DNA of 64,000 nt from Chitinophaga oryzae (GTDB taxonomy: Bacteria; Bacteroidota; Bacteroidia; Chitinophagales; Chitinophagaceae). Positions 35,421-64,000 of the stretch are shown here, piece after piece. The number at the start of each line of letters is the position of its first letter. Within the stretch, counting starts at the first letter, position 1. The stretch is from assembly GCF_012516375.2 (NCBI RefSeq), contig NZ_CP051204.2:6262001-6326000 (forward strand), in the 5' to 3' direction. Made by a program: the position numbers and the translations under genes. A model generated the notes under the pieces. The model was not told the DNA's origin, made no database searches, and saw nothing but the letters and a program-made list of their open reading frames with translations.

Positions 35421-36485
35421 TCAGGTATCTGATTTATCGAAATCACTCCAGGACCGGTAGTCCGGATCATGATCAGCTTCTATAACAGCAGTAGCAATAA
35501 CGCGGTCTCCTTTAAAGCTGTTTCTTCCGTGCGCTGTCAATAGGTTGTCCAGAAAGAGGATATCTCCCTGCTGGTATGGAAAAGATACTGTATTTTTTGC
35601 AAATGCATGTGCTATCTCCCTGTATTCATCTGCTGTAATTTCGGTACCGTCACCCAAAAAAGTATCGGAAGTGATGTATTCCTCCGGTAAAAAGTCATCG
35701 AATGCCATGCCTAATTCCTGATAACGCGAGTATTTATTAAAGAAGTAGACATGATTGAACCAGGTTTGTTCACCCGATACCGGGTGTTGATATATCGCTT
35801 TTTCCTTGGTCCATTCCAGTACCACGTGATCATTATCGAGAAAGGTGAAGCTGATATTATTCTTTCTGCAAATGTCCTCCACCATCTTCCGGTCCTCTGT
35901 CTGGAACACTTCCTGCCAGGGCATGCCCAGATCAGCGAAAAGATTCCGTTTATACTTCACGCCTTTGCTGCGGAACTTATCAAGCAGCCGGGATGGAATA
36001 TCACGCAATACTTTACGGGAATCGGCGATGGGCGTTTCTCCTCCCTCTGTCGCAGGGGTGAGGCAACAGAAAACTATTTTACGCCCCCAAATTCTGCTAT
36101 ATGATGATTCGTTGTGCAAATGAATGATCCTATCGCTGGGATAGGATGTTGATTCGTAAATATTTTTCACCGATTTATCCAATTCCTTCCGGGGAGACGA
36201 TCTGAACATATACTCCAGCGGTTGTGCATTGAAGCAACTGATAAACCGGCTAAAATCGTTGATATTTCTGACTTCAAAACCTCTCAGGAGTATGCTTCCG
36301 TATCTGACAAGATGTTGTTCAAAGGAATCCCTGTTACGCTGTATCCAGGCTACCGGGTCCACCACGTCAGACGCCGGTTCTATTACCAGCGGAAAGGAGT
36401 TTCCTTTGTCCTGAAGATAACTATATTTCGTAAGCTCGTTATTTACGGGAATACTGAGGTTGCAATCAGGTGAATTGGGCTCCAT
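35421..36485 (-). CDS. TauD/SyrP-type Fe(II)/2-oxoglutarate dioxygenase
   Basis: The 354-residue product has the double-stranded beta-helix ligands of TauD-like oxygenases: 'IHLHNESSYSRIWG' gives the HxE pair (about 122-124), and 'ILFLDNLLTAHGRNSFKGDR' gives the distal His and the 2-oxoglutarate Arg. 'RYGSILLRGFEV' and 'EGGETPIADSR' are also typical. In NRPS clusters this SyrP-like subgroup beta-hydroxylates amino acids, free or carrier-bound. It is the last gene of the minus-strand cluster; the gap to the SDR upstream is 24 bases. The substrate is unknown. The ATG at 36485 was preferred over an upstream TTG. Confidence 0.9.
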   Translation of the reverse strand: MEPNSPDCNLSIPVNNELTKYSYLQDKGNSFPLVIEPASDVVDPVAWIQRNRDSFEQHLVRYGSILLRGFEVRNINDFSRFISCFNAQPLEYMFRSSPRKELDKSVKNIYESTSYPSDRIIHLHNESSYSRIWGRKIVFCCLTPATEGGETPIADSRKVLRDIPSRLLDKFRSKGVKYKRNLFADLGMPWQEVFQTEDRKMVEDICRKNNISFTFLDNDHVVLEWTKEKAIYQHPVSGEQTWFNHVYFFNKYSRYQELGMAFDDFLPEEYITSDTFLGDGTEITADEYREIAHAFAKNTVSFPYQQGDILFLDNLLTAHGRNSFKGDRVIATAVIEADHDPDYRSWSDFDKSDT

Positions 36486-36509
36486 CAAATAAGGTTTGAA
36501 TATTATTAA

Positions 36510-37259
36510 TCAGTACATGTATTCTCCTCCGTCGATAATCAGTTTCTGCCCGTTTATGTATTCGGCCTGGTCGGAGACCAGAAAACTTACCGCGGCTGCT
36601 ACATCATCGGGGACGCCTATACGTTCCAGTGGAATTCTTCTGCGGCCCAGCTCTTCTTCCATTCTGGTTTGGAGCTGAAAGCGTTCTTCAGTTTCATCTG
36701 TTCTTGTAAACCCCGGAATAATACAATTAACGCGAATAGAAGGGCCCAGTTCCATGGCCAGGCACTTGGTCATTACAAGAACACCGGCCTTTGAAGCACA
36801 ATAATTCAACCCGTTTTTCCGTCCGCTGATACCCGTGGTTGCGCCAATATTGATTATACTCCCACGGCTTCGCTGCTCCAGCATATATCTCGCCACCTCG
36901 CGCGTTACAACAAATATACCTTTCATATTTGTATCCACCACCCTGTCCCAGTCTTCCTCGGTCATTTTTAACAATGCTTTATCAATATTTACACCAGCAT
37001 TGTTGACCAGCACCGCTAATGTGCCAAACTTTCTGACAGCCGTATGCACCATGGCCTGTACCTCTTCTGCAGAGGCTACATCCGCTTTCTGAAGCAGCAC
37101 ATTTTCTGTATACTGAAGGCAGAGGTCACGGGTTTTTTCTGCCTGCCGGTCGTCCCTCAGATAGTTTAATACTATATTATACCCATCCCTGGCCAGGCGC
37201 AGCGAGATCGCCTGTCCAATTCCCCTGATCCCTCCGGTAATTATCGCAGTTCCTTTCAT
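36510..37259 (-). CDS. short-chain dehydrogenase/reductase (FabG-like) lacking the usual catalytic Ser
   Basis: The 249-residue product has the SDR cofactor motif 'TGGIRGIG' (8-15), 'NNAGVN' (86-91) and 'YCASKAG' (Tyr153, Lys157). The position 13 residues before Tyr, normally the catalytic Ser, is Ala140 (in 'NIGATTGISG'); Thr141 is next to it. The enzyme looks FabG-like and the rest of the site is intact, so it may use the Thr, act weakly or accept an unusual substrate. It sits between the dioxygenase and the threonine-synthase-like gene and probably reduces or oxidises a precursor made there. NADP preference cannot be fixed. Confidence 0.9.
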   Translation of the reverse strand: MKGTAIITGGIRGIGQAISLRLARDGYNIVLNYLRDDRQAEKTRDLCLQYTENVLLQKADVASAEEVQAMVHTAVRKFGTLAVLVNNAGVNIDKALLKMTEEDWDRVVDTNMKGIFVVTREVARYMLEQRSRGSIINIGATTGISGRKNGLNYCASKAGVLVMTKCLAMELGPSIRVNCIIPGFTRTDETEERFQLQTRMEEELGRRRIPLERIGVPDDVAAAVSFLVSDQAEYINGQKLIIDGGEYMY

Positions 37260-37271
37260 ACTGGTTATACA

Positions 37272-38555
37272 TTATAAGCTGGTATATATTTCTTTCGGTG
37301 TGCTTAACTGTTTATATAAATCGGCCGGGTCACGTTTTCGGGTATCTATCACCGCATCAGGACTCAGCAGGTCAGTAGTTGTATCTCTTCCCCTTCCGCA
37401 TGACAATAACAGTATTTTTTCCCCTTTCTTAAAACGGCCCTGCCGTGCCAGTTTAACCACGCCTGCATAACCGATCATCAGGGATTTTTCAAGATCTGCC
37501 CGCAGAGAAATATTGCGCTCTTTTAACACCCGGATAATCAATGGCTCTTCGCTGAGTGCCTGCTTGGGGGAGACATCGGTAATAATGCCATTGTTTTCAT
37601 CCAATGTACTTTTCAGCTGCGGATAGTTATTAACCGGATTAGTGGAATTTAGCGTCGGTTCAAACAGATTCTCCCTAAACACTTTTGGCAGATGATCATC
37701 CGTCAATGTGGGCCACCCACTGTTATAGGCCGTCGACATGATATTCATCTCTTCCGACTGGACACAGATCACTTTCGGGATAGCCTCTGCCGACTGTACT
37801 CCCATGCGTAAGAGGTTCCGGTGTCCCTTATAAAAACCAATCACTCCCATGCCGCTGGCTATAGTCTGCACAAAATACTTGCAATCAGGCAGTTTATTGA
37901 ATTGCTCATAAGCGACGGTCGCATAGGATTCAATTCTGTCGTGCATCGGAGCGATGGCCGTTAAACCATTTACCGCAACAAACTCTTTGGTATAAGGTGC
38001 AATTCGTGAATAATTTTCGTCTACATAAATAATAAAATTGTTCTCATTCCTCCTGATAAAGGAAGTATTCTTATACGCACACTGGCTGGGCATAAAAAGA
38101 TAGGTTGTGAGTCCCAGATGAGCAGCGAAGTGCGTATAGGAACGCCCGGTATTGGCGGTGGAATAGAAGACCAGATTATCCAGCCCTATTTCGCGGCACC
38201 GGCTCATAATAACAGACGCTTCACGGTCCTTGAATGTGCCGGTAGGGTTTTTTCCGCTATCGCACATCAGGTACAACTCAGCGCCATTCAATTCCCTGCT
38301 GAGCTCCTCCATGTGGATAATTTCGCTGTTTCCCGCTCCAAGAGAAATAATATGATGGGGGTCTGACAGCGGAAGCATATCAAAATGAGCCCACAAATCG
38401 GACCGGTCGCCTGACGGACCTGAATATGTGCCCGTCATTTGATATTCCAGTGAGGCGCCACAATCCGGACACTTAAAAAGCATGACAGAAAGATCGAAGG
38501 TATGGCCGCAATTTGAGTTGGTGCAAACCTGGTAAACTTCAACATTATTATTCAT
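37272..38555 (-). CDS. threonine-synthase-like PLP enzyme
   Basis: The 427-residue product, read from MNNNVEVYQVC, is a fold-type II PLP enzyme close to archaeal-type threonine synthases. It has an N-terminal cysteine cluster (C11, C16, C29, C32) and the PLP lysine in 'GKNPTGTFKDREA' (Lys109). 'STANTGRSYTHFAAHLGL' and a late 'LLLSCGRGRDTTTD' segment replace the usual phosphate loop context. It may act on an O-phospho amino acid such as phosphohomoserine or phosphoserine with a nucleophile other than water; cysteate synthases are known relatives. Being inside the NRPS operon, it most likely makes a non-proteinogenic precursor. The longer frame upstream to 38699 overlaps the preceding gene and was rejected. 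Confidence 0.85.
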   Translation of the reverse strand: MNNNVEVYQVCTNSNCGHTFDLSVMLFKCPDCGASLEYQMTGTYSGPSGDRSDLWAHFDMLPLSDPHHIISLGAGNSEIIHMEELSRELNGAELYLMCDSGKNPTGTFKDREASVIMSRCREIGLDNLVFYSTANTGRSYTHFAAHLGLTTYLFMPSQCAYKNTSFIRRNENNFIIYVDENYSRIAPYTKEFVAVNGLTAIAPMHDRIESYATVAYEQFNKLPDCKYFVQTIASGMGVIGFYKGHRNLLRMGVQSAEAIPKVICVQSEEMNIMSTAYNSGWPTLTDDHLPKVFRENLFEPTLNSTNPVNNYPQLKSTLDENNGIITDVSPKQALSEEPLIIRVLKERNISLRADLEKSLMIGYAGVVKLARQGRFKKGEKILLLSCGRGRDTTTDLLSPDAVIDTRKRDPADLYKQLSTPKEIYTSL

Positions 38556-38601
38556 CGCAAAACAGTTTGGATTTTGTTTTTTGTACGTTTCCTGTATCCC
38601 G

Positions 38602-39249
38602 TTAAACATCCAGCATATTCCTGAGCGCAACCGGCGGATTATGATGAGCCAGCACGGAGCTTGACAACAGTACGCCGGAAGCTCCATTATTAATGACAAA
38701 TTGTATATCCTCGGCAGACCTTATGCCGGCGCCAAACAATATGCGGTTGGGTATGTCCCGGACGGCCGTATCCACTACTTCAGGACATTCGTTCCTGATA
38801 GAAAGCTCCTTTCCGATCAACCTTTCATTCTCTATAGCGATATAGTCCGGCGAATAGGTGGCATTCAGCCTGCCTGCCTCGGCTACGTCCAGCGCCGCAA
38901 AAATGGTACTGATGCTTTTTAGTTTAGCACATTGAAAATTCCTGTGCATATCTTTCACCCCCAGGCGCTTTTGCGGATGGTTGATCAATATTCCGCCAAT
39001 CCGGTCACTTTGAAAGAAACCTGAATTAAAAAGCATATAAAGTGGCGTCTCAGAGTAGATATCATGTACAAAAACCGGAAGATCAGTATTGGAAGCAACT
39101 TCGCCAACGTCGCAGGGCTGGACCGCCACTGCAATAGTATACTTCCTTCCTATGGAAAGACTCAACTCATTAAAAGCCACGGCCACTTCTGTAGCGGCTT
39201 TGCCGGTAAGTTGCTTAAAATTGACCAAGACAAAAGGAACATCACTCAT
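38602..39249 (-). CDS. archaeal-type triosephosphate isomerase homologue
   Basis: The 215-residue product, read from MSDVPFVLVNFKQL, has the compact TIM-barrel form seen in archaeal triosephosphate isomerases rather than the 250-residue bacterial form. The putative catalytic residues are in place: Lys12 in 'VNFK', His91 in 'ILINHPQKR' and Glu140 in 'DYIAIENERLIG'. The phosphate-binding 'LFGAGIRSAEDI' and 'GASGVLLSSSVL' follow. It is unlikely to be the housekeeping glycolytic enzyme, since it sits in an NRPS operon between an exporter and a threonine-synthase-like gene. An aldose/ketose isomerisation feeding precursor synthesis is the natural inference. Confidence 0.82.
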   Translation of the reverse strand: MSDVPFVLVNFKQLTGKAATEVAVAFNELSLSIGRKYTIAVAVQPCDVGEVASNTDLPVFVHDIYSETPLYMLFNSGFFQSDRIGGILINHPQKRLGVKDMHRNFQCAKLKSISTIFAALDVAEAGRLNATYSPDYIAIENERLIGKELSIRNECPEVVDTAVRDIPNRILFGAGIRSAEDIQFVINNGASGVLLSSSVLAHHNPPVALRNMLDV

Positions 39250-39295
39250 AAGCGTTAATTGGCGGTTAATAATAATGAACAACAAATTTGCCTGG

Positions 39296-40981
39296 TCAGG
39301 TTAACGCCACCCTGTCAACCTTACGGTCATACAGAATCCTCCCGTAGTCAAATCGTATTACTCTGTCAGCACAGTCAAAGAAAAGATCGTCGTGAGTAAC
39401 CGCGATAATAGTCTTTCCCATAGCTTTCAGCCTGCCCAGGTATTGCAGATAAAAATAACTCTTGAAATGGGAATCCTGATCGGACGCCCATTCGTCCAGA
39501 ATCAGGATTTCTTTTTGTTCCAGCAATGCATAAATCATGGCCAGTCTTTTTCGCTGGGCTTTGGACAGTTCTGTCTCCAGCTTATTCCGCTCTTCATTGA
39601 TCACAATAATGTCCGTCAGCTTCATCTGTTCTATCAGATCCATCAGCTGTGGATTTTCCCTGCTGATTTTTGCGTCGTCATAGTTTTCGGTAAACAAATG
39701 ATTGTCACCGAAAATAACGGCAAATTTGTTTCTGTAATGCTGACTAAGGTCTTCAGTGACCGGAATACCGTTATAGCTGACGTCTCCCTCCCGTGGCTGC
39801 ACCAACCCTGCAAGGATATTGATGAAGGTTGTTTTACCGCTGCCGTTTCCACCGGTCACAAACACCAGCTCTCCCTTTCTGATGGTGAGATGGTCCAGTT
39901 TAACCGTGAACACATTATTGTCCTCCTGCTGATGATAATAAAGTATGTTATCCAGCCTGATGTCTGAAAAAGAGCCCGCTAATTCGGCGCCGCCGCCATC
40001 GTCATGCATTTTCATCATAATGCTTGTATGTGTATGGCGAATGGTTTCGTCAAAAACTTTCAATCTTCCGATAGCCATTGCCACCCTGGAATAATGCGGG
40101 ATAAAGGCAATCAGTTCACCGATAGGACCGCTTAGAAACAGCAGTGTGACAACAAATGTGGTAATATTTTCGGTCTGCATACCAAACATGGAAGGAAGCA
40201 GGTAGAGAATCACACCGATGATCAGAAACCAGCTGTATCTCCCCAGCAGATCGTTGTTCAGCCAGCCTTGCAGGATTTTATAATTAAGCGTTTTCGCCAC
40301 CAGCCGGTTTTTATTGAGATGTTTGAAATAGAGATTATCATTTCTCCGGCTACTCATTTTCACTTCTTTAAACCCGTTAAGCAAATCCCGGATACTTACA
40401 TGATAGGAATCAGACAGAGAGCGTGTTTCATTAAGATACTGTACAATGCGGATATTTTTATAAAAATAGAGCGCCGCCAGCAACAGCATTACGCCAAGTA
40501 CCAGGGCTGCGGCAGGAACAGAAATAGTAAACAGGTATATGATACCTATGGCCACAATAATCGCTGAGTTCACGAGCTGAATGAAATGCTGGGGAAATTC
40601 ACTTACCACCTGTGTGTCTTCCATCAACGCATAGATCTTCTCTGTTCCCAGCGTCATAATATTCTCATAGGAGGAGGAGCGCAGGGAGTTAAACAATTTC
40701 ATTTCATATTCAAAAGCCAGCTCATTGCTAATCCTGATCAGATAGCGCTGAAACAGCCTGCTTACCCAATAAGACAGCACCAGCAGCCCGATAAACAAAG
40801 GCCAGGACTGCCCTCCAAAATAAGGCAGCGTTTCTCTGTTGAGCACTTTATTAATAAGCATCAGCAGTCCTGCATTCCAGACCACATTACTTCCTCCCAG
40901 TATCAGCAATAACGGGAGGAAATATTTGGATCTTCCCTGCAGCACTTTCAGCATTTCCAGATAGGTTCCTTTACCAGCCAT
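39296..40981 (-). CDS. cyclic-peptide exporter-type ABC transporter (SyrD/PvdE-like)
   Basis: The 561-residue half-transporter has six membrane helices in the first 310 residues and an ATPase domain. The domain has Walker A 'VTGGNGSGKTTFINILAGL' (about 378), a diverged signature 'LSKAQRKRLAMIYAL' instead of LSGGQ, Walker B 'EILILDEWASDQD' and the switch His in 'IIAVTHDD'. This combination is typical of the SyrD/PvdE group that exports nonribosomal peptides and siderophore precursors, probably as a homodimer. It lies inside the NRPS operon, so export of the product is the likely role. Confidence 0.93.
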   Translation of the reverse strand: MAGKGTYLEMLKVLQGRSKYFLPLLLILGGSNVVWNAGLLMLINKVLNRETLPYFGGQSWPLFIGLLVLSYWVSRLFQRYLIRISNELAFEYEMKLFNSLRSSSYENIMTLGTEKIYALMEDTQVVSEFPQHFIQLVNSAIIVAIGIIYLFTISVPAAALVLGVMLLLAALYFYKNIRIVQYLNETRSLSDSYHVSIRDLLNGFKEVKMSSRRNDNLYFKHLNKNRLVAKTLNYKILQGWLNNDLLGRYSWFLIIGVILYLLPSMFGMQTENITTFVVTLLFLSGPIGELIAFIPHYSRVAMAIGRLKVFDETIRHTHTSIMMKMHDDGGGAELAGSFSDIRLDNILYYHQQEDNNVFTVKLDHLTIRKGELVFVTGGNGSGKTTFINILAGLVQPREGDVSYNGIPVTEDLSQHYRNKFAVIFGDNHLFTENYDDAKISRENPQLMDLIEQMKLTDIIVINEERNKLETELSKAQRKRLAMIYALLEQKEILILDEWASDQDSHFKSYFYLQYLGRLKAMGKTIIAVTHDDLFFDCADRVIRFDYGRILYDRKVDRVALT

Positions 40982-41004: not shown

Positions 41005-41730
41005 TTATTTTGTTGCAAAAGCTTTGTTCTGTAAAGTTTGCCTGAATGTTCCCAGGGCGTCAAATAACTGTTCAAATGATTGCAGATAAAAATACTGTGT
41101 CTGCAGGTTAAAGCTGTCGTATGGTGCATTCAATACATCATCGACATCAAAAGGACGTTTGGGGACATCCGGACTAACGATATTCTCCATTTCGCCGGCA
41201 GAAGTGAGGATAGCACTGCCGAACGGTTTCAGTTTTCCTTCCTCCTCTATTAACCCCATTTCCATCGTGTACCAGTAAAAACGGCTCATATATTCCACGG
41301 CTTCCGGATCATTGATATAACCGATCGCTATTTCCGCATAACGGGAGATAAACTCGCTGAAAACGGGACTTGCCAGCATCGGCGCATGCCCGTATAAATC
41401 ATGAAAGATGTCCGGCAGCTCACTAAACTCCAGTTCTTCCTTTCTCCGCATATATACCGTAACCGGGAATTCTTTGTTGATCAACAGATTCAGAAATTCA
41501 TCCAAGGGCAACAATCCCGATACCGGATGCAATTGCCACCCAAACTTCTGCTTCATTGTGATGTTGCGGACAGGTATATTTTCAATCCGGTGAGGATTCA
41601 GGTCCAGTTGCAGAAATCCGCTACGAAAGGCGTTTGCCGCCAGATGCAGCACTGCTTTATTCTGGCGATCGAAAAGGATGCTCCAGTTCTGATGATCTTC
41701 CGCTGTATAGGCATCATAATTTTGTTCCAT
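41005..41730 (-). CDS. aromatic amino acid (phenylalanine) hydroxylase
   Basis: The 241-residue product is a short bacterial-type pterin-dependent hydroxylase. Iron ligands are visible in 'LPDIFHDLYGHAPML' (two His) and 'RFYWYTMEMGLIEEEG' (Glu); 'GWQLHPVSGLLPLDEF' is the pterin/substrate-facing region. It should hydroxylate phenylalanine, giving p-tyrosine or, as in the pacidamycin enzyme PacX, m-tyrosine; the position cannot be told here. It lies in the NRPS operon between the exporter and the SbnB-like gene, so it probably supplies a hydroxylated aromatic monomer. No carbinolamine dehydratase is adjacent. Confidence 0.92.
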   Translation of the reverse strand: MEQNYDAYTAEDHQNWSILFDRQNKAVLHLAANAFRSGFLQLDLNPHRIENIPVRNITMKQKFGWQLHPVSGLLPLDEFLNLLINKEFPVTVYMRRKEELEFSELPDIFHDLYGHAPMLASPVFSEFISRYAEIAIGYINDPEAVEYMSRFYWYTMEMGLIEEEGKLKPFGSAILTSAGEMENIVSPDVPKRPFDVDDVLNAPYDSFNLQTQYFYLQSFEQLFDALGTFRQTLQNKAFATK

Positions 41731-41804
41731 ACAAAGCAAATTCTAAATGAAGAATAGTATTAAGTATATCCTGTATACGGACGGTAGCCCAACAACCTTT
41801 CTGG

Positions 41805-42770
41805 TTACTCCAGGGATATGCCGATTTGTTCTTTCTGTGCCCTTCTGTAGTAATGGCTGGCTGTGGTCATATCAAATACCGCCAGGCCCATCGGATTAAA
41901 AATGATGGCATGATTGGACAGCTGCCGGGAACTAAATCCATCGCTCACTACTGATGAAAGCGTGAGTGCGTCGGTACTCGAAAAGCCCCCTGCCTGATGC
42001 AACTGCTGAATATTGGTTCCCTCACGGCAAACCTCCTCCCAATCATCGACGATCACCACATCAAACGCGCGCATTGCGGAGAGGCCATAATCGCGCAGGG
42101 AAACATTCAGATGCAGCGTCCCCTTCGCCGGCAGTAAATCGATATAGGGCGTGCTGGCAACCGTACAGGTTATAAAGATGTCCGCCGCTTCATACACCTG
42201 CTGCCATGAGTCGCAAACCACCGTTTTTTCTTTCAGGGAAAGGGGTAGGTTTCCGGTATCAATATGCTGTATATCGAAGAGCAGCAACTGCTCCATATCA
42301 TCCCCCAACAACGCCTGGCACATCTCGCTATGAAGCCGGCCAATAGGACCATACCCGACGATCCCCACCTTCTTTCTTACATTACCGGAAGCCTTCCTAT
42401 AGGCTGATAACACGACTGCCGATACGCCGGCGGTACGAATAGCACTGATCACGCTTGTATTGATAATACATAGAGGAACTCCGTTAGCGGCATTATTGAG
42501 GACAGTTACCGAATTTGCCCTCGGAATACCCGATTTTATATTGTCCGGAAAACTGGCAATCCACTTAATCCCCGCCATTGCTATATCGCCGCCTATGTAT
42601 GCCGGCATTGCGATAATACGGTTTCTGGGATTACCATACTTTAAATATGGCTTAAGCGGTTGTGCATAGTCATTTTCATCAGCGATACGGATACACCTCA
42701 CAATATCATGTTGAATATCCTCCCAGCTGATGCCCAATTCCATAATGTGTTGTGCATTCAGATAGAGCAT
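41805..42770 (-). CDS. sbnB: SbnB-like dehydrogenase (ornithine cyclodeaminase family), 2,3-diaminopropionate synthesis
   Basis: The 321-residue product belongs to the ornithine cyclodeaminase/mu-crystallin family. 'GGDIAMAGIKWIASFPDN' contains the substrate-side Lys, and 'VGIVGYGPIGRLHSEM' is the NAD-binding loop (about 133). In staphyloferrin B synthesis SbnB oxidatively cleaves N-(1-amino-1-carboxyl-2-ethyl)-glutamate to L-2,3-diaminopropionate and 2-oxoglutarate. Its start overlaps the stop of the SbnA-like gene by 13 bases, the diagnostic pairing for this pathway. The pair makes L-2,3-diaminopropionate a likely building block of the cluster's product. Confidence 0.9.
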   Translation of the reverse strand: MLYLNAQHIMELGISWEDIQHDIVRCIRIADENDYAQPLKPYLKYGNPRNRIIAMPAYIGGDIAMAGIKWIASFPDNIKSGIPRANSVTVLNNAANGVPLCIINTSVISAIRTAGVSAVVLSAYRKASGNVRKKVGIVGYGPIGRLHSEMCQALLGDDMEQLLLFDIQHIDTGNLPLSLKEKTVVCDSWQQVYEAADIFITCTVASTPYIDLLPAKGTLHLNVSLRDYGLSAMRAFDVVIVDDWEEVCREGTNIQQLHQAGGFSSTDALTLSSVVSDGFSSRQLSNHAIIFNPMGLAVFDMTTASHYYRRAQKEQIGISLE

Positions 42771-46048: not shown

Positions 46049-46125
46049 GAAATAACCAATAAGCTTGTTTTGCACAAGCAGTCAAACAAATAAATACTCC
46101 TTCCTATTCCGGGAAACGCGGGGTG

Positions 46126-46898: not shown

Positions 46899-47043
46899 AG
46901 ATGTAAAAGTTATTAGTGGATAAACACATGCTACAGTAGTTGGCAACAGATACAAAAATCCCTGGCTAACGAAATGGCATTAAGGCAATACGATCAGGAT
47001 ACGGACAGCATATATCCCTGTAAAACTATCACAACGTGGATAT

Positions 47044-55479: not shown

Positions 55480-56841
55480 TCAGGCTACTAACTCTTTTAT
55501 CTCTTCCTGCACTTCCTCGATACATATTTCCATAGTACTGACAATAGTTTCAATATGGTCTTCATCGAGGATCAACGGAGGGGTTATCATGATATGATCG
55601 CCTTCATAGCCATTTACCGAACCTTTACCGGGGTAAAGGATTACGCCTTTGTCGATGGACCGTTCCCCGATCCGCTTCGACAAGGTAAGGGCCGGAGGGA
55701 AAGGCGATCTGGTGCTTTTGTCCCGTACCAGTTCCACGCCCGCCAGAAGACCTGCGCCCCGTACGTCTCCCACGATATCATACTTGTACAGCCGCTCCAG
55801 TTGCCCAAGAAATAGTTCTCCCATTCTCGCAGCATGGGAATTGATCTTCATGTCCTGCATGTAGTCAATCACAAAGCTTCCGATAGCGGCTCCCAGGGGA
55901 CTACAGGCAAATGTATGTCCGCCGAGGAACGGGGTTTTGGAATCCTCAAACACTTTACAGATATTACTGTTGGCAATGACAGCCGAAAGCGGATAGTAGC
56001 CGCCGCTGATACCCTTGCCTGCAGCGATAATGTCTGGCTTAACGTTCCAGCGGTCCAATCCGAAATTTTCACCCAACCGCCCAAATCCGGTAAGGATTTC
56101 GTCTGCGATCATTACCACGTCGTACTTGGTGCATATCCTTCTGATTTCCCGCAGGTATTTTTCATCGGGAGGGGGCACTGCGCCCAAAGCTGCTGCCACC
56201 ACGGGTTCAAAGACAAAAGCAGCCACCGTTTCAGGCCCTTCTTCCAGGATACATTTCTCCAGCGCATCTGAACAACTTTTTGAATATTCCTCCAGGCTTT
56301 GTTCCGCCGGTTTTCTGTAAGCATAGGCAGGTGGTATATGTGGAAAGTTATTCATCCAGCGTTCATAAGTGGCACGCCTTAATTTCATACCGCCTACATC
56401 CAGTGTAAAAATGGAATTACCGTGGTAACTGGACCAGCGGCCAATCACTTTATACCGCTCCACATTTCCCTTTATCTGGTGGTACTGATAGGCCAGTTTA
56501 ATGGCATTCTCCACGGCGTCTGTACCGCTCATGACTGTCCAGGCTCTTTTAAAACCCTCCGGGGCGAACTGTACCAGTTTATCCAGATAAGCCTCTACCA
56601 CCGGCGAACTAAACCCGTGAGCAGGCGTCACTACTATCTTTGCACTCTGCTCCCGGAATATTTCGCCGATCTCCGGAATTCCATAACCGATGTTGGAGAC
56701 AGCCGCAGATCCGCTTGCTCCGTCGAGGTAACGTTTACCTGTCTCATCAAATACATAAACTCCCTTACCGTGGGTTAATCTGGCATATTGTTTATCCAGA
56801 TCAGGACAAACAATCATTGAGTGAATTAGAGAATTGATCAT
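55480..56841 (-). CDS. class III PLP-dependent aminotransferase
   Basis: The 453-residue product is a fold-type I class III aminotransferase. 'VMSGTDAVENAIKLAYQYHQ' is the PLP phosphate loop (about 103), 'VVMIADEILTGFGRLGENFGL' contains the PLP Asp, and 'IIAAGKGISGGYYPLSAVI' contains the PLP lysine (about 270). 'GGHTFACSPLGAA' is the following conserved block. Family members use omega-amino or alkyl-amine donors. The two flanking genes encode NRPS and carbamoyltransferase, so it probably makes or modifies a diamino acid monomer. The substrate is not predictable. Confidence 0.93.
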   Translation of the reverse strand: MINSLIHSMIVCPDLDKQYARLTHGKGVYVFDETGKRYLDGASGSAAVSNIGYGIPEIGEIFREQSAKIVVTPAHGFSSPVVEAYLDKLVQFAPEGFKRAWTVMSGTDAVENAIKLAYQYHQIKGNVERYKVIGRWSSYHGNSIFTLDVGGMKLRRATYERWMNNFPHIPPAYAYRKPAEQSLEEYSKSCSDALEKCILEEGPETVAAFVFEPVVAAALGAVPPPDEKYLREIRRICTKYDVVMIADEILTGFGRLGENFGLDRWNVKPDIIAAGKGISGGYYPLSAVIANSNICKVFEDSKTPFLGGHTFACSPLGAAIGSFVIDYMQDMKINSHAARMGELFLGQLERLYKYDIVGDVRGAGLLAGVELVRDKSTRSPFPPALTLSKRIGERSIDKGVILYPGKGSVNGYEGDHIMITPPLILDEDHIETIVSTMEICIEEVQEEIKELVA

Positions 56842-56875: not shown

Positions 56876-59800
56876 TCAAAATGCCTCGTCCAGTCGGAAG
56901 TGTTGTTCCAACGAAAGGTTTGTTATTGCTGCCGCCTCCGGTCCCAGATCAACCATCTCTATCGCCTCAGCCGGGTACGCTGTAATGTGGCCGATAAATT
57001 TGTTCAGCCCCGAAAAAATCTGATCAACAGTACTTCGTTTAAAAAGGAGGTTGTTGTACCGGATGCTTAATGCTATTGCTCCGGCGGATGATTCTACGAA
57101 ATTCAACTCCAGGTCATAATCACTGACCTCCAGTTCCACTTCATAATCCAGCGCTTCCACCTCACCTGTGCCAGACGTTTCTGCGGCGGTCAAATAATCG
57201 TCGTTCATATCACAAGACACCACCACATCTATCAGCGGATGCCTTCCCGGCTCTCTCCGTTTTACATTCTTTTCCACAATGGCATCCAGGGGATATTCCG
57301 CATGACTGTATACCGCAGCAAGCGTGTGGCTGATCTGCCGGGTTACATCCACAAAGCTGTCAGTCGGCCTGATATGGGATAAAACGGGCAGTACATTTAC
57401 AAAAAAGCCAATCTGATTAACCAGTTCAGCCTGCGTCCTTCCCGAGACAGGAATACCGGTAATAACCCGTTCCTGCCGGCACAGCCGGGAGAGAAACAGA
57501 TGTACCGCTCCAAGTACGCTGTTGAATAAACTGATATGCTGCTGTATGGAAAAGGCCTGTAAGGCGCCGGCCACAGGGGCTGCAATGACATAATTGGCAG
57601 TCGCTCCCTGTGCTGTATGAACAGGCCTTCGCTCGTAATCGAACGGCAGCCTTAGCGCCGGTGGTAACTGGGTTAATGTCTGCTGCCAAAAAACTTCGTT
57701 TGATGAAGCCCCCCTGCCCCGGTCCTGGTTCAGTTTCCAGTACACATAATCCCTGAACTGAACAGGAAGTTGTTCATGAATGGCATCCTGCCTGTTCAGA
57801 AGACGGAAATAGGCACGATTGATTTCGTCGTTCAATATAGCCATTGATCTGCCGTCAGCAATAATATGGTGTATCGACAAGATCAGTATGTGTTCCGTTG
57901 CTGACATCCGAATGAGAACACAACGGACCGGTGGCCCTTCTTCCAGGTTAAAGGGGATGTTTATCTCCCGGTTCACCAGTTCATTTATTTCACCGGGCCC
58001 TCTCGACGAAGCATCATACTGTACAACCTCGTATTTACTTCCGGCAGGCAGCACCCGCTGCCGCGCTGTGCCATTTACTACCGGAAACACGGTTCTTAAT
58101 ATTTCATACTTTTCTACGACTGCCTGAAAAGCCTCCTGCAAACAGCTAATATTAAGGTTCCCTTTGAGTGTCCGGGCTACAGCAATATTATAATTAACCG
58201 CTGCCGGATTCAGCTGGTAGGTGAGCCATAACGATTGTTGCGCAAAAGAAAGCGGGTAAGTATCTGCATCTTCCACCGGCAACAGGGCATCTGCCGGGTC
58301 ATGCACGTAGCCGGACAGGAATCTTGCCATCGTTGCCACTGTCGGATAATTAAACACATCAGGAAGCTCCAGCCTCACTGCAAACATTTTACTTAATTCA
58401 GTAATCAGCCGAATACCTTTCAGAGAGTTACCTCCCAGGTGAAAAAAGTTCTGCTCCACGGAAATACCCGTTACGCCCAGGATCTGCTCATACACTGCTG
58501 CCACCATTTCCTCCTGCTTATTCGCCGGGGCGATGACCGGTGCGATGTCTCTGCGTTCCTTAAAGGCTGCCAGCAGTTTCTTGCGATCAGCTTTACCGTT
58601 GATATTCAAAGGGATCTTCTCTGTTATCTCATATGCAGACGGTAACAGATGCCGTGGCAGCCGGGCAGCCGCAAAGGCTGCGAGTTCTTCCGGGATAATG
58701 CCGGCCGCGCCACTTTCGGCCACAACAAATGCAACCAGCATGTCCATACCCTCGTCTGTGGCCCGGCAAACGGCCGCATTGCCGATTCCCGGGAAGGACA
58801 GTAGCACCTGTTCTATTTCTCCCGGCTCTATTCTGTTTCCATTGATCTTTATCTGATCATCTTTTCTGCCGGCAAACAACAACTGTCCACCTTCGGTCCA
58901 TCGGCCCAGATCGCCCGTAAGATAAACCGGAAACCTGCTGTCATACAGAGAGGGCAAAAACCTTTCCGCGGTAAGCTCCGGGTTATTGATATACCCCCTG
59001 GCCACCCCCGGCCCGGACACAGCAATCTCACCAACTGTTCCCAGAGGTTGCAGGCGATGATGGCTGTCCAGAATATAGATGTTCATATTCCTGACCGGTT
59101 TTCCTATAGGCACTTCACTGCCGTTGAAAAAACCATCATCCTGGTATATACTGGCGCAAACGGTGGTCTCCGTTGGCCCATAGGCATTTATATACTTTTT
59201 GAATTTCCGGTAAAAAGCCGCGTCCGAAATATCAGCCCGCTCCCCTGCCGAAATAACTTTGTTCACTGTTCTGAGCGTATCTTTTTCAAAAAGTTTCAGG
59301 TAGGAAGGCGGCATGACGATGGTGGTGACATTTCTGGTAAACAATGTACGTTTCAACCGGTCAATATCCTCCACCTCGCTGTTCTGTATCAACGTGAGGC
59401 GTGCACCAGCCAGCAGCGCAATCCATACTTCATAGACAGAAGCATCGAATGTTAACGGAGAGAACTGTAATACATTATCGCTGCTGTTTATTCCTATCTG
59501 ACTTATCTGGTGGCCGACCATATTAACCAGCCCCTTATGCTCTACAGCAACCCCCTTAGGGCGTCCGGTAGACCCGGAAGTATAGATGACATAAGCAAGG
59601 CTGCCAGGGGCCGGGATGGCCGGCACCCCTTGCACAGTTTCAGTCTCTTCCGGCTGGAATTCAATATCGACAGCAAAAATACTACCGTCAAACCCGGGAA
59701 AATCGAAAAGAAAACCGGAATGCGTAAGTATCAGTTTCAGCTGGCTGTCTTCCAGTATAGCAGCAGTTCTTTCTGCCGGATAGGCCGGATTAATGGGGAG

Positions 59801-60805
59801 ATATGCCGCTCCTGACATAGTAACGCCAAGCATAGCGACCAGCCAGTCCACAGATCTCTCCAGATAAACACCCAGCAACTGACCTGGACGGACGTCATAA
59901 ATCTCGCGCAGCTGGCAAGCCAGTAATGCAGACCGCCGGTACAACGCTCCATAGCTAAGGTTGCCATCCCCAAATGTAACCGCGACAGCGTCCGGACGCT
60001 CCAAAGCCATCTGCTTAAAGCAGGCAATGATGGACCCCTCCGGTATTTCCTGGCGGATGCCCGCGCCCAAGGATTTCAGCACCTCTTCCTCCTGTTCGTC
60101 CATTATCCTGATGTCATTCAGCGAAATATCCGGATTGGATAGACAAACGGCAATATTTAATATATGGCGGCCTATCCGTTCAATAAATGCCTGCTCGAAA
60201 AGACCTTTGCGATAGTAGCAACTGGACACAAAAACGCCATCGCTGACATCCATACAGCAGCACAGATCGTGTGTGCCTATCCTGGCCTCGTCAATCTTTC
60301 CCGTCGTAACCAGCACATTGCTAAAAGATGGTGTTTTTTCATCACCCGTGATAAGTTCCAGCGGATAGTTCTGATGTTCATAGCTGGCGCCGAGTATATC
60401 CTTTATCTGGTTCAAATACGCCCTCAGCGAGCCCCCCCTTTCCATTGGCACCACCACCGGCAGCAGCTCACAGTATATCTTCTGCAGCCGCTCCGGCTTG
60501 AATAGCGGTACGTTTACCACAACAACCTGTTCTCCCGAGTACCGGGACAACAATAATGAAATGGCGGCGACATACCAGGTATGCCGCTTCATTTCACCAC
60601 TTTGGCAAAGCGATGAAAATGCGGGAGGCAACTCATTCAATGGCACTGTGGTATGAACCACAGACATCCCGCTCTGTTTTCCGCCTGATCTGTCCCATTG
60701 GACGAACCTGAAGCCATCACCTGCCTTTTGAATCGTATCATTCCAGAACTGCAAAAATGGATCAAATCGTTCTTCCCGGAAAAGAACCTTGTCAATTATA
60801 TTCAT
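56876..60805 (-). CDS. NRPS: partial C-A-T-C, predicted aromatic substrate
   Basis: The 1309 residues start with about 245 that resemble only the C-terminal half of a condensation domain, without HHxxxDG. An adenylation domain (255-750; 'YTSGSTGRPKG' about 408), a carrier domain ('FFHLGGNSLKGI', Ser794) and a complete condensation domain (850-1300; 'HHIIADG' 979-985) follow. The hand-read code is D-A-Y-S-I-A-A-V-C-K, close to the phenylalanine code of GrsA (D-A-W-T-I-A-A-I-C-K), so an aromatic residue is expected. The phenylalanine hydroxylase and CmlA-like enzyme in the operon fit this. Its start overlaps the carbamoyltransferase stop by 14 bases, indicating translational coupling. Confidence 0.93.
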   Translation of the reverse strand: MNIIDKVLFREERFDPFLQFWNDTIQKAGDGFRFVQWDRSGGKQSGMSVVHTTVPLNELPPAFSSLCQSGEMKRHTWYVAAISLLLSRYSGEQVVVVNVPLFKPERLQKIYCELLPVVVPMERGGSLRAYLNQIKDILGASYEHQNYPLELITGDEKTPSFSNVLVTTGKIDEARIGTHDLCCCMDVSDGVFVSSCYYRKGLFEQAFIERIGRHILNIAVCLSNPDISLNDIRIMDEQEEEVLKSLGAGIRQEIPEGSIIACFKQMALERPDAVAVTFGDGNLSYGALYRRSALLACQLREIYDVRPGQLLGVYLERSVDWLVAMLGVTMSGAAYLPINPAYPAERTAAILEDSQLKLILTHSGFLFDFPGFDGSIFAVDIEFQPEETETVQGVPAIPAPGSLAYVIYTSGSTGRPKGVAVEHKGLVNMVGHQISQIGINSSDNVLQFSPLTFDASVYEVWIALLAGARLTLIQNSEVEDIDRLKRTLFTRNVTTIVMPPSYLKLFEKDTLRTVNKVISAGERADISDAAFYRKFKKYINAYGPTETTVCASIYQDDGFFNGSEVPIGKPVRNMNIYILDSHHRLQPLGTVGEIAVSGPGVARGYINNPELTAERFLPSLYDSRFPVYLTGDLGRWTEGGQLLFAGRKDDQIKINGNRIEPGEIEQVLLSFPGIGNAAVCRATDEGMDMLVAFVVAESGAAGIIPEELAAFAAARLPRHLLPSAYEITEKIPLNINGKADRKKLLAAFKERRDIAPVIAPANKQEEMVAAVYEQILGVTGISVEQNFFHLGGNSLKGIRLITELSKMFAVRLELPDVFNYPTVATMARFLSGYVHDPADALLPVEDADTYPLSFAQQSLWLTYQLNPAAVNYNIAVARTLKGNLNISCLQEAFQAVVEKYEILRTVFPVVNGTARQRVLPAGSKYEVVQYDASSRGPGEINELVNREINIPFNLEEGPPVRCVLIRMSATEHILILSIHHIIADGRSMAILNDEINRAYFRLLNRQDAIHEQLPVQFRDYVYWKLNQDRGRGASSNEVFWQQTLTQLPPALRLPFDYERRPVHTAQGATANYVIAAPVAGALQAFSIQQHISLFNSVLGAVHLFLSRLCRQERVITGIPVSGRTQAELVNQIGFFVNVLPVLSHIRPTDSFVDVTRQISHTLAAVYSHAEYPLDAIVEKNVKRREPGRHPLIDVVVSCDMNDDYLTAAETSGTGEVEALDYEVELEVSDYDLELNFVESSAGAIALSIRYNNLLFKRSTVDQIFSGLNKFIGHITAYPAEAIEMVDLGPEAAAITNLSLEQHFRLDEAF

Positions 60806-62519
60806 GCCAGATATTATTCAGGTTGAACTTTATTTTTTGCGCTCTGCTGTAAAGGATGCCATTACACCAGACATAATTAAGCCGTCCCCATGTCATCGCG
60901 CTTTTGACATCCGGGAAAAACCCGGACCCGTTCAAATTGGCGCTGGTATTGCACAAAACGGGCAACCCCGACATCCCGTGGTAGTGTGACAGCAGCTCAA
61001 ATATCAGCGGATGCTGATGACGGTTTACGGTTTGTACCCTCGCCGTCATATCAAGATGCATCACAGCGGGTATACGATCATGCCACTCAGGTCTTACCCT
61101 ATGTTCAAAAAGCATATATGGATCTTCCCCGCCTGGCTCAAAGAGCAGTTCAGCATATTGTTCAAGACATATGGGGGCTACCGGCCTGAAGTGCTCTCTG
61201 TGTTTAACATCATTAAGCAGATCTTTCATCTGCGGAGATCCTGCCGGCGCGATGATACTGCGATTACCCAATGCCCTTGGCCCCAGCTCTGCACGGCCGT
61301 TAAGGAAAACGACCGGTTCGCCCGTATTGTACAGCAGTGCCGCCAGATCCTCCATAGTACATGCTTCCTGCTCCCATCCGGGCATTACGGCTTCAGTACC
61401 GATTTCCGGACCGGCATATACACTCCATTCAACAACCGCTTTTCCCGACTGAAAGAACCATTCACTGCAGGCAGCACCGATGGCGCTGCCGGAATCATTG
61501 GCAAATGGCGGCACCCATATGCTGCTGAATAAAGCGCTCTGTCTGATAGCGCTGTTCCATTTAATATTCAGGGCGCATCCACCGGCGTAACAAAGGTTAC
61601 GCTCAAAATGAGGAAACTGTTTCACTCTTTTCTCAAGATGCGTCAATAACAGTTGCTCGATATACAGATGAAGCGATGCAAGTATGTCTTCGTCCGGATA
61701 AACATCTCCCAGTTCATCTTTCACAGCTTTTGAAAATATATGCTCAAAGTCATCTGCAATTACCAGTGAGGTGGCATGTATCCTTGCGAAGACATCCAGC
61801 AACTCCGGCCTTACCTTGCCCAACGCGATATAGGACATGATTTTACCGGCTACAGAATAACCTCCAAAAAAGCCATCCAGGCTCTTTTTCCGGCGGTCGT
61901 CCGCCAGCTCCTCAGTGGTCTTCCGGTAGGGCCCGAAATATTGTGCAAACACACTGTATATAGTGCCCAGAAAGAAAAAGAGCGGTCCCAGATTGTGTAC
62001 TTCGTTATTGCCGGCGTCAACATAATACAAGCGCGGATACTGCCCGCCGTCCCACGTAAGAACGTAAGCCCCCTGTTGCTGACGGGCAGCTTCACTGGTT
62101 GCATAGGCACTCATAACATGGCTTGTGACATGCATATAACTGGAATAGGAAAATAACTTTCCGGCAAGTGGTAGCTTGTCGTGGTAAGCCCATCGATGGA
62201 GAATAGATTCGTTCAGTTCTTCTTCATGATAAGGCGCCGCCGGGAGCACTGTCATTCCGGCAGCGCTGTTTACCGGCAGCGCTGCCTCGCCCGTCGAGAA
62301 AGGACCGGTCCCATGCCATCCGTCAATAACAAAATGATCTACAGCATCAGCAGTTAAACCTCCCTCTGCCAGGATAGCGCAGATACTTTCCAGGTCATCA
62401 ATACCGCTGTATCTTGGGTTATTGGACAACTTTTCCATTTCCACACTGAATATCAGCACTCCATCACGGATTACAGCAATACCGCCGTCATGTGTTAGTT
62501 TAATACCACAAACTATCAT
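60792..62519 (-). CDS. NodU/CmcH-type O-carbamoyltransferase
   Basis: The 575-residue product has the two-domain layout of the family. A Kae1-like N-terminal ATPase fold begins 'MIVCGIKLTHDGGIAVIRDG' and includes 'NLCYAGGCALNIKWN'. A C-terminal domain has 'NGRAELGPRALGNRSIIAPA', 'HFRPVAPICLEQ' and 'LPVLCNTSANLNGSG'. Family members (NodU, CmcH, TobZ) transfer carbamoyl from carbamoyl phosphate through carbamoyl-AMP to hydroxyl groups of antibiotics and Nod factors. It is packed between two NRPS genes (3-base gap and 14-base overlap), so the peptide or one of its monomers is the likely substrate; a beta-hydroxyl produced in the pathway is one candidate. Confidence 0.93.
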   Translation of the reverse strand: MIVCGIKLTHDGGIAVIRDGVLIFSVEMEKLSNNPRYSGIDDLESICAILAEGGLTADAVDHFVIDGWHGTGPFSTGEAALPVNSAAGMTVLPAAPYHEEELNESILHRWAYHDKLPLAGKLFSYSSYMHVTSHVMSAYATSEAARQQQGAYVLTWDGGQYPRLYYVDAGNNEVHNLGPLFFFLGTIYSVFAQYFGPYRKTTEELADDRRKKSLDGFFGGYSVAGKIMSYIALGKVRPELLDVFARIHATSLVIADDFEHIFSKAVKDELGDVYPDEDILASLHLYIEQLLLTHLEKRVKQFPHFERNLCYAGGCALNIKWNSAIRQSALFSSIWVPPFANDSGSAIGAACSEWFFQSGKAVVEWSVYAGPEIGTEAVMPGWEQEACTMEDLAALLYNTGEPVVFLNGRAELGPRALGNRSIIAPAGSPQMKDLLNDVKHREHFRPVAPICLEQYAELLFEPGGEDPYMLFEHRVRPEWHDRIPAVMHLDMTARVQTVNRHQHPLIFELLSHYHGMSGLPVLCNTSANLNGSGFFPDVKSAMTWGRLNYVWCNGILYSRAQKIKFNLNNIWHEYN

Positions 62520-62522
62520 GTA

Positions 62523-64000
62523 TTAAAAATTGAAATTAAAGTCTTCTGTTACCTGCTGCTTAAGCTCTCCGACGGGCATATTCTCATCTGTCAGGCTGAG
62601 CGTCCTTACCGGCACATGGGGCAGCGCGACCGCCAGTTCCGCCGTCTTTCTGAACAGGCGCCAGAGATGATCAATCGTTCCGGCGCTGAAGAGACCGGTA
62701 TTATAGGTTATCTCCACCGCTATCTCCCCTTGCCGGTCCCACATATTAATAATCAGATCGTACTTGCTGTAAACAGCCTGATTCACGGATTTCTCGACCA
62801 CAGGTATTTCATTACCTGTATGGACATGCTGCGAGCGTGGGACATAGCCATCATTAAAGGAGATCGCCACATCAAAAAGCGGCGCACGGCCGCCGGCGCT
62901 GCTGATATTGAGATGGTCTATCAGCATGTCCAGCGGAAAATACCAGTTTTCCACGGCGGCTATCACCCGCTGCGCTACTTTATGCAATATGGCATAGTAT
63001 GAATCTTCAGTTCCGATGTTTAACCGCAGCGGCCATGTGTTAATAAAAAATCCAATCTGGTCCAGCAAGTCCGGATGATACCTCCCGGCATCCACAATCC
63101 CCACAATGATATCATCCTGGGCTGTAACCCGATGGAACACAATTTCCCATACGGTCAGCAAGTTCATAAAGATGGTAGTCCGCTGCTCTGCGGCTATCCG
63201 GTAAAGATGATCGCTGCCGGACCTGTCCAGCGACCGCGTGATGATAGCGCCCTGGTAGGTCCGCCTTGCAGGTCTTGGAAAGTCGACAGGTATCTCCAAA
63301 GAGGGCAATATTCCGGAGAAATGATCCAGCCAGTATTTCCGGCTCTTGTTTTCTTTATCACCGACCTTTTGATGATACCACATCGCAAAGTCTTTGTATT
63401 GTACTGGCAGAGGGTTTAACGGATATGTACCGCTGCCGTACGCATGGTACAAAAGTGACAGCTCATGAAACAGTACTTCCATAGACCAGCCATCTGTGAT
63501 AATATGATGAATTGAAAACAATAGCAGGTGATTTTCAGCTCCCGTCCTGATAAGCGTTATCCGGAAAAGGGGGGCCATCGTAAGATCAAAGGGCATTTTA
63601 GAAGCCTCATAAGTGATCTCGTCGATGACAGTGGGCTTCTTCCGCTCTTCCACGTCTGACAGGTCCACAAAACGGATGTCCGGTTTTACCGCCATCGCTT
63701 CCAGTACCTGCTGATGAGGTTCTCCCTGTATGGTAACAAACACCGTTCTCAGACTTTCGTGCCGTGCTATCAGGGCTGTAAATGCCCAGGTCAGCGCCTC
63801 CATATCCGGTTCTCCTGCTATCGCCGCGGCATTGAACAACAGATACGCCCCCCGGGCGGCCTCTATCTGGTCCATAAGCCAGATCTGCTTTTGCTGATGG
63901 GAAAGCGGGTAAAATGGTTGATGTTCTACCAGCGGGATACACAGGGCAGGTTGTTTTCCGGCTGCTGAAAGGAAGGCTGCCTGCTCTCTGATAGTGGGTT
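62523..64000 (-). CDS. NRPS, 3' end: (T)-C, continues past right edge
   Basis: The frame is open from the right edge. The first visible residues, 'PTIREQAAFLS', are the end of a carrier domain, and 'LVEHQPFYPLSHQQKQIWLM' starts a complete condensation domain. That domain contains 'LFSIHHIITDGWSMEVLF' (active HHxxxDG) and ends about residue 470 of the visible part ('VTEDFNFNF'). The ATG at 63875 lies inside the C domain and is not the start. The subunit therefore ends in a free condensation domain that must act on the next subunit's monomer. The upstream modules, and probably the initiation module, lie outside the window. Confidence 0.93.
   Translation of the reverse strand, partial: PTIREQAAFLSAAGKQPALCIPLVEHQPFYPLSHQQKQIWLMDQIEAARGAYLLFNAAAIAGEPDMEALTWAFTALIARHESLRTVFVTIQGEPHQQVLEAMAVKPDIRFVDLSDVEERKKPTVIDEITYEASKMPFDLTMAPLFRITLIRTGAENHLLLFSIHHIITDGWSMEVLFHELSLLYHAYGSGTYPLNPLPVQYKDFAMWYHQKVGDKENKSRKYWLDHFSGILPSLEIPVDFPRPARRTYQGAIITRSLDRSGSDHLYRIAAEQRTTIFMNLLTVWEIVFHRVTAQDDIIVGIVDAGRYHPDLLDQIGFFINTWPLRLNIGTEDSYYAILHKVAQRVIAAVENWYFPLDMLIDHLNISSAGGRAPLFDVAISFNDGYVPRSQHVHTGNEIPVVEKSVNQAVYSKYDLIINMWDRQGEIAVEITYNTGLFSAGTIDHLWRLFRKTAELAVALPHVPVRTLSLTDENMPVGELKQQVTEDFNFNF

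Follow-up and report, generated by a model that had tools for sequence, protein, structure and literature searches.

The window analysed here is a 64,000-nucleotide stretch of Chitinophaga oryzae (NZ_CP051204.2, positions 6262001-6326000 of a one-contig 8.36-Mb genome). Its right-hand part is best explained as the 3' half of an orphan nonribosomal peptide synthetase (NRPS) cluster for a lipo-pentadecapeptide in which two supply cassettes feed fixed positions of the assembly line. Taken jointly with both cassette readings, we rate this explanation somewhat better than even. In the first cassette, SbnA/SbnB-like enzymes would make diaminopropionate (Dap), which a knotted carbamoyltransferase would N-carbamoylate to beta-ureidoalanine for loading by NRPS B (adenylation code DAQDLAIVD). 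In the second, a triosephosphate isomerase (TIM) homologue, a threonine-synthase-like enzyme of the PALP family and a short-chain dehydrogenase/reductase (SDR) would supply a cyclic, proline-like amino acid, which the first NRPS I module (DVHLVAFNA) would load. The whole cluster spans about 80 kb at 45-50% GC and ends at genome 6377142, about 51 kb beyond the window.

Gene classes were called with Pfam, families were assigned with NCBIfam cut-offs, and domains were mapped with profiles built on the cluster's own domains. A sequence-only reading of the window had listed the enzyme classes of one NRPS cluster with a thioesterase (TE) at its end and had proposed extending the sequence rightward to reach the initiation module. 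Pfam finds every class that it named, and the domain map shows the single line ending in TE. Rightward extension reached a start at which the first protein opens with an AMP-binding domain (Pfam), probably of the acyl-ligase type and serving for lipid loading. The assembly line reaches genome 6374790, followed to the cluster's end by genes for an M28 peptidase and a GT1-type glycosyltransferase.

The genes are transcribed in the order K, J, I, H, G, F, E, D, C, B and A-T-TE. NRPS K contains the acyl-ligase-type domain and a carrier (T) domain, then condensation (C) and adenylation (A) domains as C-A-T and C-A, and a frame change follows. NRPS J reads T, C-A-T, C-A-T, C, and NRPS I reads half C, A-T, C-A-T, C. 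NRPS H is a degenerate A domain plus a methyltransferase and lacks T. NRPS G, on the plus strand, has half C, A-T, C. NRPS F has half C, A-T and a C- or epimerization-like domain, NRPS E is C-A-A-T, C-A-T, and NRPS D is C-A-T, C-A-T, C. NRPS C (half C, A-T, C) and NRPS B (weak C, A-T, C) come next, and after a second frame change the line closes with A-T-TE. Of the 16 T domains, 15 serve amino acids and one serves the acyl starter. Because an acyl-ligase-type start is combined with 16 carrier domains, a lipo-pentadecapeptide is expected; the acyl-ligase-type domain would load a lipid, fifteen amino-acid modules would extend it and the TE would release the product. At the N-termini of NRPS C, F, G and I, similarity to a condensation domain is weak and confined to its C-terminal part, and the protein preceding such an N-terminus often ends in a full C domain. 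These half-C regions are perhaps docking parts.

For the adenylation codes, the cluster's 17 A-type domains (starter included) were aligned with MAFFT, with the motifs of one domain as anchor, and read at what we take to be the GrsA code positions. The first part of the line gives, in order, DTESIGTIC, DVYIITAIY twice, DADVVVAVC, DVHLVAFNA, DAFFLGLTY, DIWEINTDD (NRPS G) and DALTIGAVN. The second part gives DMPQLGVTW/DIWEINTDD from a tandem A pair, DVWQVVSDA, DFWNIGMVH, DIWQITADD, DAYVIAAVC, DAQDLAIVD and DILQLGVIW. The tandem pair lies in NRPS E (genome 6336559-6339075), where two successive adenylation cores with different codes share a single carrier domain. DFWNIGMVH presumably specifies Thr and DILQLGVIW is presumably Gly-type. 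In the tree, the domains of C, J2, J3 and K3, with that of F on a long branch, join the genus clade of DA[SW]TIAAIC, assumed here to be a Phe/Tyr-type code.

The first cassette begins with two proteins for which SbnA and SbnB are by far the best NCBIfam families. Their scores lie slightly below the equivalog cut-offs (336 bits against 349.95 for TIGR03945; 304.6 against 326.9 for TIGR03944), and the two are therefore called SbnA/SbnB-like. The SbnA/SbnB-type Dap supply read earlier thus stands as a family assignment and falls short of equivalog rank. The criteria for knotted carbamoyltransferases given in passages of PMC4581275 are a proline-rich loop and an extended 120s loop. Alignment shows both loops in the window's enzyme and its relatives, and neither in the PyrB-like gene of the same genome or in an OTC-like protein of genome G293. 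The assignment to the knotted group, which the sequence-only reading had made, is thereby supported, though plain ornithine carbamoyltransferase (OTC) models are the top NCBIfam scorers. Their scores lie below the cut-offs (TIGR00658, 265.8 against 280.85 bits; PRK00779, 282 against 306), and a plain OTC identity was dropped on this ground. Of the three transcarbamylase-superfamily motifs, SxRT and HPxQ are present, while HxLP reads NCMP ([DN]C[ML]P in relatives). YgeW had been considered as proof of Dap specificity and was dropped, since PMC12507026, in the part consulted, places YgeW in the 2-ureido group.

The knotted enzyme occurs at 51% identity or more in 4/79 genus genomes, this one included. 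Other genus matches are 29-34% identical, usually one a genome, and look like the housekeeping enzyme. In all four genomes sbnA/sbnB-like genes lie in the same cluster, separated from the carbamoyltransferase gene by 55 bp (G185, contiguous), 2.7 kb (G210), 2.7 kb (G203) and 10.7 kb (window). The beta-ureidoalanine hypothesis was drawn from the window's own Gln-like code before the codes of the relatives were read. Once extended, the relatives' clusters all contained DAQD[LI]ALVD domains, so that DAQD[LI]A[IL]VD is found in 4/4 carbamoyltransferase clusters (5 domains). As a control, 30 loci were read from an adenylation profile search that matched 43/79 genomes at threshold, one locus a genome: 4 from the query clusters and 26 from other genomes. 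Because the searches score at most about 26 adenylation candidates in any one genome and give a single locus for it, these counts are of loci read. DAQD codes appeared in 6/26 other loci, all as DAQD[LI]GVV[DN], in which Gly and Val stand in place of the Ala and Ile/Leu of the cassette clusters; these six are Gln-type. The remaining 20 loci had unrelated codes. G210 and G203 each have one Gln-type domain as well (DAQDIGVIN and DAQDIGVVN), and the two DAQD types therefore exist side by side.

On the best reading of these sequences, Dap would be N-carbamoylated to beta-ureidoalanine, a Gln isostere with NH in place of CH2. Carbamoylation most likely occurs at the precursor stage, given that the enzyme is found repeatedly together with sbnA/sbnB-like genes and one adenylation code. 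According to the sections of PMC4581275 used here, zwittermicin A and viomycin are cases in which Dap is carbamoylated to beta-ureidoalanine, so the proposed chemistry would be of a known kind.

The second cassette was overlooked in the earlier reading. The genes it listed as one set are all present; the TIM homologue, the threonine-synthase-like enzyme and the SDR form a cassette of their own. The TIM homologue has a TIM-like Pfam match of 24.3 bits (cut-off 20.1) and is of the archaeal type, with 112.4 bits for PRK04302 (cut-off 132) and 42.3 for TIGR00419 (cut-off 130.6). Its best solved relatives are 1hg3, 2h6r, 5csr and 1w0m. N10, K12, H91 and E140 are invariant in four homologues and align with archaeal TIM 1hg3, matching what we take to be the catalytic Asn, Lys, His and Glu. 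Proton-transfer chemistry is therefore likely to have been kept, though the HSE motif reads HP[QE] and GTG reads GK[EDP]. The protein is rare: among 5.8 billion proteins it had three matches at the search sensitivity, itself included, and the 35% identical copy of genome G202 was not among them. It was found in 2/79 genus genomes and 1/147 genomes of a family sample (its own). The PALP protein scores at best 110.8 of the 303 bits of the threonine synthase equivalog cut-off. It belongs by sequence to a family separate from threonine synthase, in which 114/120 listed proteins are at least 49% identical (self included) and 52 positions are invariant in 99 listed sequences. Sources among the matches listed include Puia, Heteroscytonema, Moorea, Desulfonema and Ktedonobacteraceae; within a phylum sample it was found in 1/395 genomes at E 1e-70 (its own), and a search of plasmids found none. 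Plain threonine synthase and plain TIM were dropped as identities, both being below the cut-offs. The overlap of the PALP and TIM open reading frames as listed is due solely to far upstream start codons.

In genome G202 the cassette lies between NRPS genes with the order TIM-PALP-SDR kept, and a gene of the inositol-monophosphatase type comes next. DVHLVAFNA is the sole code common to the window cluster (17 A-type domains) and the 17.6-kb G202 contig (4). In the window cluster the domain with this code sits in the leading module of NRPS I, beyond the right edge of the window (genome 6357186-6358235). Within the genus no other domain comes as close to it as that of G202 (49%, 298 bits; next 38%, 215 bits). 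Ten further loci, one a genome, gave eight DVQ- or CVQ-type codes and two aromatic-type codes; some genomes, the window's own among them, had a better-scoring second match that lay outside the codes read. In the tree, the DVHLVAFNA pair has 100/99 support within a 100/98 clade that includes the DVQ types.

The solved A domains nearest to the NRPS I domain are TycB (187.7 bits) and GrsB (175.8). Other chains give 165.3 (8xjz_C, two stretches), 144 (McyA), 134-144 (TycA) and 128 (GrsA), and the 252 bits of LgrA combine two domains. A DVQ domain (L064) likewise matches GrsB (252) and TycB (245), with other chains at 190 bits or less except LgrA, whose 350 again sum two domains (166 + 182). We take the GrsB and TycB chains to be proline modules and DVQ..AHVV codes to be proline-specific. 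DVHLVAFNA departs from the presumed canonical proline code, DVQ..A[HQ]VV. Because the domain belongs to a proline-type clade and has a non-canonical code, a proline-like yet different substrate is proposed, and the best reading of the sequences is that the TIM-PALP-SDR cassette makes it.

A possible route can be outlined. The TIM-barrel enzyme would act on a small phosphorylated sugar or amino acid, making or isomerizing its enediolate or aldehyde. From O-phosphohomoserine the threonine-synthase-like enzyme would form an electrophilic aminocrotonate-type intermediate, to which it would add the TIM-derived carbon nucleophile. The adduct would close to a pyrroline, which the SDR would reduce to a substituted proline. 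TIM and PALP would then be a tryptophan-synthase-like pairing of a TIM barrel with a fold-II pyridoxal phosphate (PLP) enzyme, assembled from other parents. That the cassette is an undescribed route to a proline-like amino acid, including this PLP-electrophile chemistry and with two new code-to-substrate rules, we offer as a speculative proposal that is probably wrong in some part. In the open PMC literature, searched with narrow term combinations, we found no description of a TIM or threonine-synthase-like enzyme with an NRPS.

Several observations weigh against the cassette readings. G203 and G210 hold one orthologous cluster (116 kb aligned, 79%), so the independent n is three. In Chitinophaga clusters sbnA/sbnB are common, according to the portion of PMC9248904 consulted. 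The DAQD..A clade also includes the Gln-type domain of G210. The carbamoyltransferase tree is poorly resolved and does not join the window copy with the other three; a single recruitment event, once considered, was left without support for this reason. Among the best 120 of 368 matches, widespread proteins share 55-62% identity with the carbamoyltransferase, and the close relatives that bear names include ornithine carbamoyltransferases of Acidobacteria, Pyrinomonadaceae and Aminicenantes. Ornithine or another amine could therefore be the substrate. The enzyme would in that case be an ornithine or acyl-ornithine carbamoyltransferase from primary metabolism, a citrulline-like ureido acid would be loaded and Dap would enter free at another module. 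The sub-cut-off OTC scores and the lead of OTCs among solved relatives agree with this. However, the knotted-group loops are kept rather than the OTC form, the genome has two more carbamoyltransferase genes (SOTC-like and PyrB-like by alignment), and the enzyme recurs with the sbnA/sbnB-like genes and with a Gln-like code whose length beta-ureidoalanine would fit better than citrulline. We regard the ornithine alternative as rather unlikely. For the second cassette, the coupling to DVHLVAFNA rests on two clusters. The public PALP locus, on a Planctomycetota metagenome-assembled genome contig (SMVQ01000204.1, 8160-9740; 53% identical), adjoins a one-module NRPS gene whose visible code, DAFTCALIW, differs, and no TIM was found on this 15-kb contig. 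The contig scan with a two-sequence PALP profile gave this one locus only, and its two short peptide patterns were insensitive, as the protein search turned up many more PALP relatives. TIM, PALP and SDR may thus supply a fatty-acid or sugar part (the cluster contains a glycosyltransferase) or a residue loaded elsewhere, the shared code being chance or ordinary proline-type use. Yet none of the eight DVQ/CVQ-type relatives has the code DVHLVAFNA, the two DVHLVAFNA domains are mutually nearest by a wide margin, and of 21 non-NRPS genes compared, these three alone were matched in the G202 contig. We consider such a role unlikely, though less so than the ornithine alternative.

The integrity of the line must also be weighed. 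One frame change falls within the third A domain, between K and J, inside a 4.8-kb tandem copy of whole NRPS modules (99.3% identity, genome ~6361800-6369700) that is either a recent module duplication or an assembly fault. The other falls within the last C domain, between B and TE. NRPS G (genome 6345133-6349779) is inverted amid the minus-strand line and adjoins the degenerate A-methyltransferase gene H. With two frame breaks and an inverted gene an intact line is not assured, and these features, with the T-less H, may be assembly faults or real decay. A decaying or mis-assembled cluster without an intact product would account for all of them. Against this, the remaining NRPS genes read through as long uninterrupted frames, as do the frames of the tailoring genes; nearly identical repeats and frame changes of a single base would also be typical of assembly faults, in which case the living cluster would be intact. 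Decay or misassembly to this extent seems to us improbable, on a par with a non-amino-acid role for the second cassette. A described Bacteroidota lipodepsipeptide such as chitinopeptin would be of the same size class (14-15 residues). None of the cluster's 17 A-type domains has a DLTK-type code, presumably one for Asp or Asn. Chitinopeptin A has three beta-hydroxy-Asp residues, and 'carbamoyl' has 0 occurrences in the main text of PMC9248904, of which parts were consulted. Identity with chitinopeptin was dropped on account of the differing codes, and we give a described product of this kind almost no credence.

The other enzymes suggest further modifications. The CmlA-like enzyme scores 297 bits for CmlA_N (cut-off 25), and its THNHQDH fits the HxHxDH metal motif. 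The sequence-only reading had taken it to mark a beta-hydroxy-aromatic residue, which is not established: enzymes 58-60% identical lie between DLTKIGEVG and Thr-type modules in the G210 and G203 clusters, so the CmlA-like enzyme is not by itself a marker of an aromatic residue. DLTKIGEVG is assumed to be an Asn-type code. Relatives of the TauD-type enzyme were found by tblastn in G185 (40%) and G203/G210 (35-37%). Both enzymes may hydroxylate carrier-bound or free residues. The phenylalanine hydroxylase gives 236.1 bits against the Phe 4-monooxygenase equivalog cut-off of 247. Because four or five modules are aromatic-type, a use for it is plausible; it would supply a hydroxylated aromatic acid to some of them. 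A second Biopterin_H domain lies elsewhere in the genome (4425206-4425859) within an open frame of 708 aa that may be a fusion. The NodU-type enzyme would O-carbamoylate a hydroxyl. The two kinds of carbamoylation proposed earlier are borne out to the extent that the carbamoyltransferases come from two families (OTCace and Carbam_trans).

Features of the NRPS cluster within the window (window coordinates)
Feature	Position	Strand	Evidence and remarks
TauD/TfdA-type Fe(II)/2-oxoglutarate dioxygenase	35421..36488	-	Pfam 127.7 bits; tblastn relatives
SDR reductase, gene 3 of TIM-PALP-SDR cassette	36510..37259	-	Pfam, NCBIfam; 59% in G202
Threonine-synthase-like fold-II PLP enzyme (PALP), cassette gene 2	37272..38555	-	Zinc-ribbon-like N-terminus, four Cys; 56% in G202
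Archaeal-type triosephosphate-isomerase homologue (TIM), cassette gene 1	38602..39249	-	Asn/Lys/His/Glu active site kept; 35% in G202
SyrD-type cyclic-peptide ABC exporter	39296..40981	-	Pfam; TIGR01194 273 bits (cut-off 286)
Bacterial phenylalanine-hydroxylase-type Biopterin_H	41005..41739	-	Pfam 134 bits
SbnB-like enzyme, OCD family (putative Dap supply)	41805..42770	-	Pfam, NCBIfam
SbnA-like PLP enzyme, PALP family (putative Dap supply)	42758..43729	-	Pfam, NCBIfam
CmlA-like diiron beta-hydroxylase	43747..45354	-	CmlA_N + MBL fold, Pfam 297 bits; HxHxDH motif
Type II thioesterase	45338..46075	-	Pfam
Conserved accessory protein, 120 aa, predicted CBF-beta fold	46126..46488	-	
Conserved accessory protein, possibly GIY-YIG-like	46515..46955	-	
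NRPS last module A-T-TE, code DILQLGVIW	47447..50125	-	Preceding C domain split by frame change at ~50190
NRPS B: weak C, A (DAQDLAIVD, core 52030-53088), T, C; predicted beta-ureidoalanine module	50185..54450	-	
Knotted-type N-carbamoyltransferase	54466..55434	-	Pfam OTCace N+C 149/122 bits
Class III aminotransferase	55480..56841	-	Pfam 271 bits
NRPS C: half C, A (aromatic-type, DAYVIAAVC), T, C	56876..60805	-	
O-carbamoyltransferase, NodU-type	60792..62519	-	Carbam_trans N+C 227/160; 657 bits vs NodU cut-off 1000
NRPS D, 3' part	62523..64000	-	Whole gene = genome 6324523-6332376

The two small accessory proteins are conserved in the G185 and G210/G203 clusters. A CBF-beta fold is predicted for the 120-aa protein; a PDB profile search with its family gave no sequence match, and the single sequence gave one insignificant nucleoporin. 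The second protein may, weakly, be GIY-YIG-like (Pfam GIY-YIG E 0.016 for the G210 copy; top Foldseek matches to R.Eco29kI chains, E 0.14, not significant). An ADOP/MacB-type permease gene adjoins the cluster on the left (window 32997-35351, minus strand), with a 27% relative within each of the G185, G210 and G203 clusters, and may belong to the export system. An Rfam search found two tRNAs and nothing else.

The genus is rich in orphan NRPS clusters, and one more is not startling by itself. Each of the two cassettes goes with a single adenylation code, and two building blocks can be predicted directly from this. Beta-ureidoalanine would be a Gln look-alike with the proposed diagnostic code DAQD[LI]A[IL]VD. 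If these readings hold, genome-mining tools could predict both residues, and a CBF-beta-fold protein beside an assembly line would be a further surprise.

The earlier reading recognized no characterized pathway with the whole gene set, and we likewise found no described cluster with it in the open PMC literature, searched with narrow combinations of terms. The chitinopeptin clusters resemble this one as large Bacteroidota lipodepsipeptide NRPS systems with sbnA/sbnB-type Dap supply, CmlA-type beta-hydroxylation and an ABC transporter, and the consulted portion of PMC9248904 mentions no carbamoyltransferase or TIM/PALP/SDR. The window cluster differs from them in its order of codes and in having no DLTK-type code. 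The zwittermicin A and viomycin clusters also combine Dap synthesis with an OTC-superfamily carbamoyltransferase, as described in parts of PMC4581275; they belong to other phyla, and the window's enzyme looks knotted-group. The closest systems are the G185 and G210/G203 clusters, which share the sbnA/sbnB-like genes, the knotted carbamoyltransferase, GT1, TauD, a type II TE, the SyrD-type ABC exporter and the DAQD..A code. CmlA is found among them in G210/G203 only and the M28 peptidase in G185 only. Their fetched stretches gave no match to TIM, PALP, the O-carbamoyltransferase, the phenylalanine hydroxylase or the class III aminotransferase, and SDR matches were weak (23-35%). For the second cassette, a comparison can be made with Fub7/CndF-type systems, in which the amino acid assembled by a PLP enzyme bears a side-chain carbonyl and closes to an imine, which a reductase then reduces. 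The PLP enzymes there differ in fold type from the threonine-synthase-like fold-II enzyme paired here with TIM, and any likeness would lie in the hypothetical chemistry of ring closure and reduction.

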